Of a stretch of 64,000 bases of DNA, positions 9,068-11,128 are shown piece after piece (within the stretch, counting starts at the first letter, position 1; every line of letters begins with the position of its first letter). The DNA comes from Phycisphaeraceae bacterium. Its GTDB lineage: Bacteria; Planctomycetota; Phycisphaerae; Phycisphaerales; SM1A02. The stretch spans positions 2,485,205 through 2,549,204 of the forward strand of contig CP054178.1 of assembly GCA_015709595.1 (NCBI GenBank), written 5' to 3'. A program made the position numbers and the translations under genes. The notes beneath the pieces are model-generated. The model searched no databases, had not been told where the DNA came from, and worked only from the letters and a program-made list of their open reading frames with translations.

Positions 9068-11128
9068 ATGTGCGGCATCGGCGGTATCGTGCGCACCGAT
9101 GGTCAGCCCATTCCCGAGGAATGGCTGGACGCGATCGATGCGCGCATCGCCTACCGCGGGCCGGACGGGGCGGGCCGTTTCCGCGACCGCGTCGAGTTCA
9201 CCGATGAGAAGGGCGAGAAGCGGGTCATCGAGGTCGCCCTGATCCACCGGCGGCTGTCGATCATCGACCACACTTCCGGGGGGCAGCCGATGGTCAGCGA
9301 GCGCGGCCGCACCGAGGCCGAAGGGCTGGTGGCCGTGGTCTTCAATGGCTGCATCTACAACCATCGCGAACTGCGGCGGGAACTGGAGGCGAGGGGCCGC
9401 CGCTTCGTCACCGATCACTCGGACACGGAGGTGCTGATTCATGGGTGGCGGGAGTGGGGTGAAGCACTGCCCGATCATCTCGAAGGGATGTACGCGTATG
9501 CGGTGTGGGATCGGACTTCCGCGCAACTGTTTCTTGCTCGCGATCAATTAGGCGAGAAGCCGCTTTTCTACCGTGCGTGGTTGGAGGAACCGCATCTGCC
9601 GCAAAGCCCGCCGCGCGGGATGGCGTTTTCCAGCGATTGCTGGGCCTTGATCGCCATTCCATTCACAGAGGAAACGCCCGATTCAGCCACGCTTGTGCAT
9701 TGGGCTGTTCGATATGCCGCATTCGGATATTCGGGTCGGATGTCGCAACCGTACGAGGGTGATGGAACCATCTGGGAGATTGATCCCGGCCAAGCAATCA
9801 AGAGCGATGGAGCGAAGACGTTCCATCGAATCGCGCGTGACTCGCTCTCGAATCCAGACCCCGCACCCCCAAACCCTCTCCCAGAGGGAGAGGGGAGTCT
9901 TGAATCCCTTCTCGAACGCGCCGTCGCCCGCCGCCTCGAAGCCGATGTCCCCCTCGGCTGCTTCCTTTCAGGCGGCGTCGATTCATCGCTCATCGCGCAC
10001 TTCGCCAAGAAGCACAAGCCGGACCTGATGACGTTCACCGTGCGCATGCCCGACCCGCGGTATGACGAGTCGGCGCACGCGGAAGCGGTCGCCCGGCATC
10101 TCGGGACGAATCACCGCACGCTGGATGTGGCGATGAAGCCCGCGGAAGATCTCGTCCACCTCATCGACCTCCTCGGCCAGCCCTTCGGCGACTCCTCCAT
10201 TCTGCCCGCGTACTGGGTGAGCAAGGCCGCGCGGCAGCACGTGAAGGTCGCCCTCTCCGGCGACGGGGGCGATGAACTGTTCCTTGGCTACGAGCGATAC
10301 ATGGCCGCGCCGTTCCTCGCGAGGCACTGGCGGTGGCTGCGGCTGCTGCCGGTTGGTTTCCTGCACGGCGCCCATCCGAAGTCGCGCTGGAACAAACTGG
10401 CGCGGCTGGCGGACATGGCCCGCGACTACCCGAGCATTGGCCTGACGGCGATGGAATCCATCTTCACGCAGCGGCAGTTGCGCGAGCTGATCGACCTCCC
10501 CTCTCCCTCCGGGAGAGGGGCCGGGGGTGAGGTCGTTTCCGAAAGAGACTGGTCCGTTCCGCACCAACCGCTCCCTGATGGTCGCGGCTCACTTCCAGCG
10601 GGTCGCGGCTCACTTTCAGCCATCGAAGCACTTCGCCATTTCGACCTCAACCACTACCTGCCCGGCGACCTGCTCCGCAAGACCGACACCGCCTCCATGG
10701 CGGTCGCCCTCGAAGTCCGCTGCCCTTTCCTCGACCGCGACCTGGCCCGCGCGGTGCTGGCCATGCCCATCCAGCAGCTCATCCCCGGCGGCGAGCGCAA
10801 GGGGCTGCTCAAGCAGATCGCCCGCAAACACCTGCCGCGCGAGGTGGTGGACCGGCCCAAGATGGGATTCGCCATCCCCATCGGCGAGTGGTTCCGCGAT
10901 GACGACCTGCCCCACCGCGGCGCGGGGATGAAGACGCTGCTGCTCGACCACCTCAACTCGACGGAGCCCTTCGGCCCAATTCAACTCAACCCCAGAGCCG
11001 TGCGGCGACTCATCGACGAGCACATGACGGGTGGATTCCGGGGGCGTGACCACTCGCACCGCTTGTTCACGCTTCTCACGTTGTCGATCTGGGCGCGGGG
11101 GGTGGGCCGCGCTGCGACGCGCGGCTGA
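9068..11128 (+). CDS. asnB: Asparagine synthase (glutamine-hydrolysing) with in-frame palindrome insertions
   Basis: Makes asparagine from aspartate, ATP and glutamine. It begins MCGIGGIV, so Cys2 is the Ntn amidotransferase nucleophile after Met removal. The synthetase half has the pyrophosphate loop FLSGGVDSSL and the conserved YLPGDLLRKTD segment. At 686 residues it exceeds the usual ~610-640. Part of the excess comes from two insertions whose DNA is repetitive: one just before the SGGVDSS loop (NPLPEGEGS, near 9861-9900) and one of about 35 residues before YLPGDLL (near 10495-10620). Both keep the frame and lie at domain edges, so the enzyme may still work. There is no strong ribosome site. 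It converges with the ACT-domain gene 7 bases away. Confidence 0.92.
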   Translation: MCGIGGIVRTDGQPIPEEWLDAIDARIAYRGPDGAGRFRDRVEFTDEKGEKRVIEVALIHRRLSIIDHTSGGQPMVSERGRTEAEGLVAVVFNGCIYNHRELRRELEARGRRFVTDHSDTEVLIHGWREWGEALPDHLEGMYAYAVWDRTSAQLFLARDQLGEKPLFYRAWLEEPHLPQSPPRGMAFSSDCWALIAIPFTEETPDSATLVHWAVRYAAFGYSGRMSQPYEGDGTIWEIDPGQAIKSDGAKTFHRIARDSLSNPDPAPPNPLPEGEGSLESLLERAVARRLEADVPLGCFLSGGVDSSLIAHFAKKHKPDLMTFTVRMPDPRYDESAHAEAVARHLGTNHRTLDVAMKPAEDLVHLIDLLGQPFGDSSILPAYWVSKAARQHVKVALSGDGGDELFLGYERYMAAPFLARHWRWLRLLPVGFLHGAHPKSRWNKLARLADMARDYPSIGLTAMESIFTQRQLRELIDLPSPSGRGAGGEVVSERDWSVPHQPLPDGRGSLPAGRGSLSAIEALRHFDLNHYLPGDLLRKTDTASMAVALEVRCPFLDRDLARAVLAMPIQQLIPGGERKGLLKQIARKHLPREVVDRPKMGFAIPIGEWFRDDDLPHRGAGMKTLLLDHLNSTEPFGPIQLNPRAVRRLIDEHMTGGFRGRDHSHRLFTLLTLSIWARGVGRAATRG
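9861..9899. repeat. REP-like palindrome inside asnB, copy 1
   Basis: A perfect 9-bp stem (CCCTCTCCC 9874-9882 / GGGAGAGGG 9886-9894) with loop AGA, preceded by a C-rich arm (CACCCCC). It is translated in frame in asnB. Read on the minus strand, stem and G-rich arm match copy 2 at 10495-10536. Confidence 0.85.
10495..10536. repeat. REP-like palindrome inside asnB, copy 2 (inverted to copy 1)
   Basis: A perfect 10-bp stem (CCCCTCTCCC 10498-10507 / GGGAGAGGGG 10511-10520) with loop TCC, followed by the arm CCGGGGGTGAGG. It is the same element as copy 1 in opposite orientation, so the same DNA word is translated from both strands in one gene. Confidence 0.85.
10562..10620. repeat. Dispersed repeat, second family, inside asnB
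   Basis: The core CCGCTCCCTGATGGTCGCGG (from 10568) recurs with two changes, inverted, at the end of recA (46941-46976). Here it is followed by a second partial unit: GTCGCGGCTCACTT occurs twice about 21 bases apart, and is translated as two GRGSL peptides. Confidence 0.75.

Follow-up and report, generated by a model that had tools for sequence, protein, structure and literature searches.

The asnB gene of a Phycisphaeraceae bacterium (assembly GCA_015709595.1, contig CP054178.1) contains one short palindrome twice without losing its reading frame, which raises the question of what this palindrome is and what carried it into the gene. In the window, the whole 64,000-nt stretch that was analysed (positions 2,485,205 to 2,549,204), all inserts, namely the palindrome pair and copies of a second repeat family, sit within asnB and its single 686-codon frame (Table 1). 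By sequence, the paired inserts are solitary copies of the Escherichia coli BoxC repeat, later described as the PIT element or the TM_ECO intrastrand triplex motif. The repeat itself is already known; new here is its link to DUF559. DUF559 genes of many phyla are bracketed by BoxC, mostly with both tails toward the gene, and the BoxC copies are probably passengers of a small mobile DUF559 element, comparable to repetitive extragenic palindromes (REPs).

BoxC-type palindromes in asnB and in the host genome

The two asnB copies share the exact stem CCCTCTCCC-NNN-GGGAGAGGG (positions 9874-9894 and 10499-10519), with the loop AAA in copy 1 and a CCG/CGG-like loop in copy 2. The extended copies are 86% complementary to each other and therefore lie in opposite orientations. 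Copy 1 is translated as PAPPNPLPEGEGS (AsnB residues 265-277), which lies in the linker preceding the synthetase domain, 23 residues N-terminal of the SGGVDSS motif that begins at residue 301, and copy 2 is translated as LPSPSGRGAGGEV (residues 477-489). A preliminary description of this DNA had reported one palindromic element inserted twice in asnB, in opposite orientations and in frame, read as different peptides from its two strands, with one copy close before SGGVDSS. All of this is borne out, and the G-rich arm that it had attached to the stem is the conserved tail CCCTCACCCC (GGGGTGAGGG on the opposite strand). In alignments to PDB chains by sequence, insert 1 maps to the linker before the synthetase domain, and insert 2 lies within a stretch left uncovered by both alignments shown.

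Two exact stem matches occur in the window compared with none in 100 shuffles; with up to three mismatches the shuffles contain a mean of 0.08 matches, and 0/100 reach two. The computed DNA hairpins of copies 1 and 2 have energies of -10.0 and -11.6 kcal/mol, respectively. The fold of copy 1 is uncommon against shuffles (2/200 as good), whereas that of copy 2 is not (19/200). By eye, direct GAATCC words stand on either side of copy 1 (window 9845-9910), and flanks outside some copies are mutually inverted (GACCTC/GAGGTC and ACGCTC/GAGCGT; window 10490-10540 and locus L015, 1490-1550).

Table 1 Features of the asnB gene in the window (R1, covariance model of the palindrome)
Feature	Position	Strand	Evidence
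asnB, glutamine-dependent asparagine synthetase, 686 aa	9068..11128	+	Pfam Asn_synthase E 1.1e-88, GATase_7 1.3e-35; open reading frame
BoxC-like copy 1, tail-stem-3-nt loop-stem, in frame	9861..9897	+	R1 match 9851-9903 +, 53.5 bits
BoxC-like copy 2, in frame	10496..10532	-	R1 match 10490-10542 -, 57.9 bits
Tandem pair of 21-nt repeats from a second family (core GGTCGCGGCTC), translated as LPDGRGSLPAGRGS	10571..10612	+	

The host genome (3.84 Mb) contains 25 exact stems (loop of 1-15 nt) compared with none for the reversed pattern, far above chance; a genome-wide search of this kind had been proposed in the preliminary description. Alignment of 17 of these copies showed the tail CCCTCACCCC conserved before the stem and a core of about 38 nt; the tail word was scored in 19 of the 25. 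The covariance model R1 was built from the 17 aligned copies, and both asnB copies are rows of it. With 150 of 2547 first-look candidates scored, R1 matched at least 51 distinct places in the host at E < 1e-4 and gave at least 76 matches at E ≤ 0.01, some of which are one place on both strands.

Five of the six reading frames of the 38-nt consensus are open, and therefore most insertions bring no stop. The 30 best host places contain every one of the 17 R1 rows. Fourteen of the 30 are in-frame insertions, spread over 12 genes and supported by Pfam matches across the element or on either side of it. The firm cases are AsnB (two places), UvrD/PcrA, RIO1 kinase, IleRS, MgsA/RarA, aldehyde dehydrogenase (two places), TrpB, PurL, GpsA and a DUF1905-OmdA protein; the profile halts at the element and picks up 2 to 8 positions on, past it, in three of these (RIO1, aldehyde dehydrogenase and GpsA). 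GlnRS (E 0.0018 for a 12-residue match past the element) and a transporter (MFS_1 under its cut-off, and nothing past the element alone) are weaker cases. The other 16 places comprise one that is firm on one side only (GH38), four at gene ends, two ambiguous ones and nine with no Pfam match or long frame. Frames in this tally were hand-picked from the longest ones; L231, in tandem with L229, was not scanned separately, L228 was scanned twice, and L244 and L255 are without a frame of at least 150 aa. The preliminary description had offered a tolerated loop or an enzyme under relaxed selection. Tolerated loops and linkers fit better, and relaxed selection is needless because host copies are in frame also in IleRS, TrpB, PurL and GpsA.

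R1, although made from host copies only, recovered two E. coli copies at 49.9 bits (E about 6e-13), and the three-part BoxC word, consisting of the CCCTCACCC tail, the CCCTCTCCC stem with its short loop, and GGGAGAGGG, is present. With E allowed up to 10, a permissive limit, blastn matched the consensus in 2598 of 5426 E. coli genomes. Five Rfam matches were obtained with E as high as 10, all of them short of their gathering score. In the available text of Holder et al. 2015 (PMC4666352), the motif is 37 nt long, occurs in 23 copies in strain MG1655, always intergenic and with five inverted pairs, and falls into types A and B by a second loop of TTA or CCG; it forms triplexes in vitro, and its loci are unstable. 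First known in the 1990s and since counted in more than 260 genomes, BoxC has lacked a spreading agent, and the same text reports no transposase or integrase remnants or mobility genes around the motif (PMC4666352). The host copies share the tail-stem-loop-stem word with E. coli, but whereas those of MG1655 are intergenic, 14 of the 30 best host places are in-frame genic insertions.

The preliminary description had also noted a resemblance to Rickettsia palindromic elements (RPEs), which, in the part of PMC10969869 that was available, are likewise palindromic repeats in frame inside many unrelated genes. The resemblance stands for a dispersed palindrome that enters genes in frame. Kinship is not supported: RPEs are about 150 bp (PMC10969869, same part), compared with a host core of about 38 nt, and membership is rejected on this difference in length. 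The element is BoxC/PIT/TM instead.

Palindromes around DUF559 genes

DUF559 (PF04480) was picked for testing because such peptides occur beside it, and far flanks, reversed sequences, AsnB loci and loci of RAYT (REP-associated tyrosine transposase) served as controls. In 20 element-rich genomes, the top 20 of the phylum by stem count with the host left out, the palindrome was found at 16 of 24 DUF559 loci of any strength (reversed control, 3), compared with 1/30 RAYT loci (control, 1; 30 fetched of 103 matches) and 1/29 AsnB loci (control, 0).

We then gathered 80 DUF559 loci by protein similarity alone, among the matches listed for queries from element-rich genomes. By their record titles, these loci span Pseudomonadota, Desulfobacterota, Chloroflexi, Armatimonadetes, Elusimicrobia, Nitrospirae and others. 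Strict palindromes number 165 in the 46.9 kb within 300 bp of the gene and 10 in 132.7 kb at 2-3 kb, while hairpins of other composition are hardly enriched (0.66/kb near DUF559 versus 0.44-0.60 further off). When the tail was required, 162 copies in the near 46.9 kb (3.46/kb) stood against 36 in 329.4 kb beyond 600 bp (0.11/kb), a density 32 times higher, and the reversed sequences of these loci gave 9 hits versus 203. Across these 80 loci, R1 matched 244 times at E ≤ 0.01 (best 7.5e-14), with some places counted on both strands.

The copies are arranged in a consistent way around the gene. Two of the 80 loci, without 120 bp on both sides, are left out of the both-sides counts; a tail-bearing copy lies within 300 bp on at least one side in 66 of the remaining 78, on both sides in 50 and on neither in 12. 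The nearest upstream copy is on the minus strand in 50/57 loci and the nearest downstream copy on the plus strand in 59/60. Where both sides have a copy (50 loci), the nearest pair is (-,+) and faces inward in 44, giving the layout stem-tail-DUF559-tail-stem. The DUF559 gene of E. coli is ycjD (PF04480, 158.5 bits), with BoxC-type elements downstream. In Neisseria gonorrhoeae (L216, 3481-4193), a DUF559 gene precedes three blocks, spaced about 281 bp from one another, that each contain an inverted element pair.

A canonical DUF559 gene, defined as E < 1e-25 by a cut-off set after viewing the list, is present in 11 of the 20 element-rich genomes and in 2 of 40 genomes without the exact stem, which were hand-picked and nearly all at least 90% complete (39/40 pass the quality mark). 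The Fisher p of 2.6e-5 (4.4e-5 with the host counted) is optimistic because the genomes compared are related. Hairpins also accompany DUF559 in a small second set, from plasmids. Among 12 of 45 plasmid records, chosen for variety, C/T-rich hairpins lie within 300 bp of DUF559 in nine, another hairpin type in one and none in two; 22 hairpins occur in 7.2 kb near the gene versus 8 in 21.6 kb far from it. Stems vary within this set, for example in Deinococcus, Sphingomonas and Azospirillum, and four further records were viewed beside the 12. On a Deinococcus psychrotolerans plasmid (L279), a DUF559 gene flanked by hairpins separates paaD from paaZ, as though it had entered the operon by insertion.

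Relatives of the host and a complete unit in a lyase gene

AsnB was matched in 60 of the 61 genomes searched, host included, and 27 of 29 relative loci were aligned with the host protein (L050 and L053 gave no usable AsnB frame). At site 1, no BoxC insert is recognisable by eye in the 27 aligned frames, and none of the 29 loci has an R1 match there; the AsnB peptide of L046 looks similar at this site and is likewise without an R1 match. At site 2, only L037, from another genus (G036), bears a BoxC insert among the 27 (R1 40.4 bits, L037 2887-2939), and the other 28 relative asnB loci gave no R1 match at E ≤ 0.1. Judged from the alignment, the L037 insert is an independent BoxC-type copy in the loop homologous to that of copy 2. 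Site 2 is a loop of variable length in which the nearest relatives have long unrelated sequence, so that the insert boundaries are approximate. The comparison with relatives that the preliminary description had called for thus finds such an insert in one of 27 proteins, with its own copy at site 2; neither outcome that would have spoken against the description, inserts conserved in distant AsnB proteins or stem words at background frequency, came about. Across the phylum the exact stem is patchy, found in 60 of 294 genomes with 1 to 331 copies each. In G141, a 3.9-Mb genome with 331 exact stems, some of the stems line up in series that alternate between two types (e.g. C1:569380-569830).

In one genome, the gene and its palindromes apparently entered a coding sequence together. 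G054 encodes a single 495-aa frame (L256, C1:1480394-1481869) in which HMG-CoA lyase is divided by a complete DUF559 domain. In two alignments to solved lyases, the match breaks off at residue 72 or 76 and is taken up again at 263 or 265, with 6 or 4 chain residues in the gap. A lyase match was found in seven of nine other genomes searched and is uninterrupted in 7/7; the inter-motif spacing is 54-67 residues in six printed frames of relatives versus 245 in G054. The insert has the layout [tail-stem..stem-tail] DUF559 [tail-stem..stem-tail], and its stems carry a variant word. As read from these alignments, a complete DUF559 unit is inserted in frame in the lyase gene of G054. Inverted doublets thus stand on either side of this unit, and inverted pairs also occur in E. 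coli (L214 and L215).

How the palindromes may have spread

Together, our results show a strong association from which we infer an action of DUF559 on the element. A DUF559 profile (A2) matched the endonuclease-like structure 3hrl (1.3e-33) and 3r3p, a "Mobile intron protein" (2.9e-6), in the PDB. We take 3r3p to be I-Bth0305I of the EDxHD class. In the accessible part of PMC1189080, YcjD is placed with Vsr in the PD-(D/E)XK superfamily. On these matches and this grouping, DUF559 would nick or cut DNA at the palindrome and/or the target, and repair would then copy the palindrome, or the whole unit, to new places; we infer each of cleavage, copying and target choice by DUF559. Genic insertions would survive only where the frame is kept and in loops, and the survivors would give patchwork enzyme peptides such as NPLPEGEG. 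The host seems to have lost the nuclease gene, and its BoxC copies may be relics. A broader proposal, plausible and more tentative, is that BoxC and the variant palindromes form the mobile part of a bacteria-wide element class that has a Vsr/EDxHD-type nuclease (DUF559) instead of a transposase. It would be a homing-like REP system that copies palindromes of about 40 nt, sometimes the whole unit, both between genes and, with the frame preserved, into essential genes, where they supply new peptide loops.

The closest parallel is RAYT, thought to move REPINs; here, homing-type nuclease chemistry would take its part. The available portion of PMC3116915 describes REPIN/RAYT systems as short palindromes and inverted doublets, with a gene flanked by copies and solitary copies as probable remnants, and BoxC shows each of these features. 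However, the partner of BoxC is the PD-(D/E)XK family DUF559 and not a Y1 tyrosine transposase, and BoxC is frequent in coding DNA of the host. REP end tags are GTAG or CGTC (PMC3733652, in the part available), whereas both are missing from the 17-copy host consensus. DUF559 is like the homing endonuclease I-Bth0305I in its 3r3p match, but it stands outside an intron and is bracketed by palindromes that are also dispersed alone. As in insertion sequences and miniature inverted-repeat transposable elements, inverted copies bracket a gene (44 of the 50 two-sided loci, among 78); that gene encodes a DUF559 nuclease and not a recognised transposase. BoxC has been described without mobility genes nearby, in contrast to the nuclease gene tied to the element here.

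Several observations weigh against DUF559 as the mobiliser. Proximity is no proof of action. In E. coli, elements were found downstream of ycjD only and none upstream. The host has no canonical DUF559 gene (one 21.6-bit Pfam match in a 1699-aa frame, none with profile A2), and 9 of the 20 element-rich genomes, including G200 with 262 copies, have none either, in a search that may miss genes: control E. coli gave no PF04480 match, being a strain without ycjD or one that the first look missed. Stem type tracks the DUF559 tree weakly (18 changes against a shuffled mean of 21.4, as low in 2/200), as judged from stem-word labels for 62 of the 80 loci on a tree with 50 of 77 inner branches unresolved. 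Neither the E. coli sites nor the G054 relatives yielded a target-site duplication or a base-exact empty site. Two E. coli phnK-phnL alleles (L224 and L222) with near-identical flanks differ by replacement and not by clean insertion, with a BoxC inverted pair in one strain and a pair resembling E. coli REPs in the other. A second E. coli site was too diverged for this comparison, and in three E. coli strains that lack ycjD, efflux genes and not an empty site are found beside sapF.

One alternative is that BoxC has no mobiliser and arises or shifts by replication errors (slippage, template switching) at triplex-forming DNA, with DUF559 merely among the repeats. This is near the instability reading of Holder et al. 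2015, whose available text (PMC4666352) reports in vitro triplexes, unstable loci and no mobility genes, and the host has copies although a canonical DUF559 gene was not found there. We consider it improbable: errors in place would not carry near-identical 38-nt sequences across phyla or into unrelated genes, and the inward-facing layout of 44 of the 50 two-sided DUF559 loci would be unexpected.

It is likewise unlikely that DUF559 recognises BoxC in some other role, with the palindrome as an operator or self-protection site, or with DUF559 as a repair or defence nuclease acting on triplexes and selected beside them. The Vsr-like fold of DUF559 is in keeping with such a role, as is a Caulobacter DUF559 Vsr-like protein that, in the available text of PMC12907096, is held responsible for the SOS response without a cytosine methylase. 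By itself, recognition of this kind leaves unexplained both the hundreds of dispersed copies (331 in G141) and the complete unit inside HMG-CoA lyase.

Movement of BoxC by RAYT, as for an ordinary REP or REPIN, would suit the small palindromes, inverted pairs and dispersed copies, as well as the RAYT-type match of the host and the presence of RAYT-linked repeats in the same asnB loop. It is nevertheless very unlikely and largely refuted: at the 30 RAYT loci fetched, of 103 matches in the 20 element-rich genomes, the only BoxC match is in L098, where the RAYT lies beside a DUF559 gene, and the repeats around the host RAYT are those of the GGTCGCGGCTC family.

This second family, overlooked in the preliminary description, is unrelated to BoxC and has 121 host matches with up to three mismatches versus 0 in the reversed control. 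Inverted GGTCGCGGCTC copies flank the host RAYT (L024 6743-7430), two on the minus strand before it and two on the plus strand after it. Of 30 RAYT loci from other genomes, only 2 show the core, as would be expected were every RAYT to have a repeat of its own. The asnB loop at 10499-10612 thus holds BoxC and the RAYT-linked family side by side.

The literature naming DUF559, ycjD or BoxC/PIT/ITxF, represented mostly by titles and abstracts with few subscription journals or preprints, contained no DUF559 link or mobiliser, and an earlier report may exist. With a specific partner gene, present in E. coli as ycjD, the question of how BoxC spreads becomes directly answerable. If DUF559 does mobilise the palindromes, one more nuclease family would join the drivers of repeat spread, a domain of unknown function would gain a role, and the proline/glycine-rich insert peptides in otherwise conserved enzymes, such as those of AsnB, would be explained.

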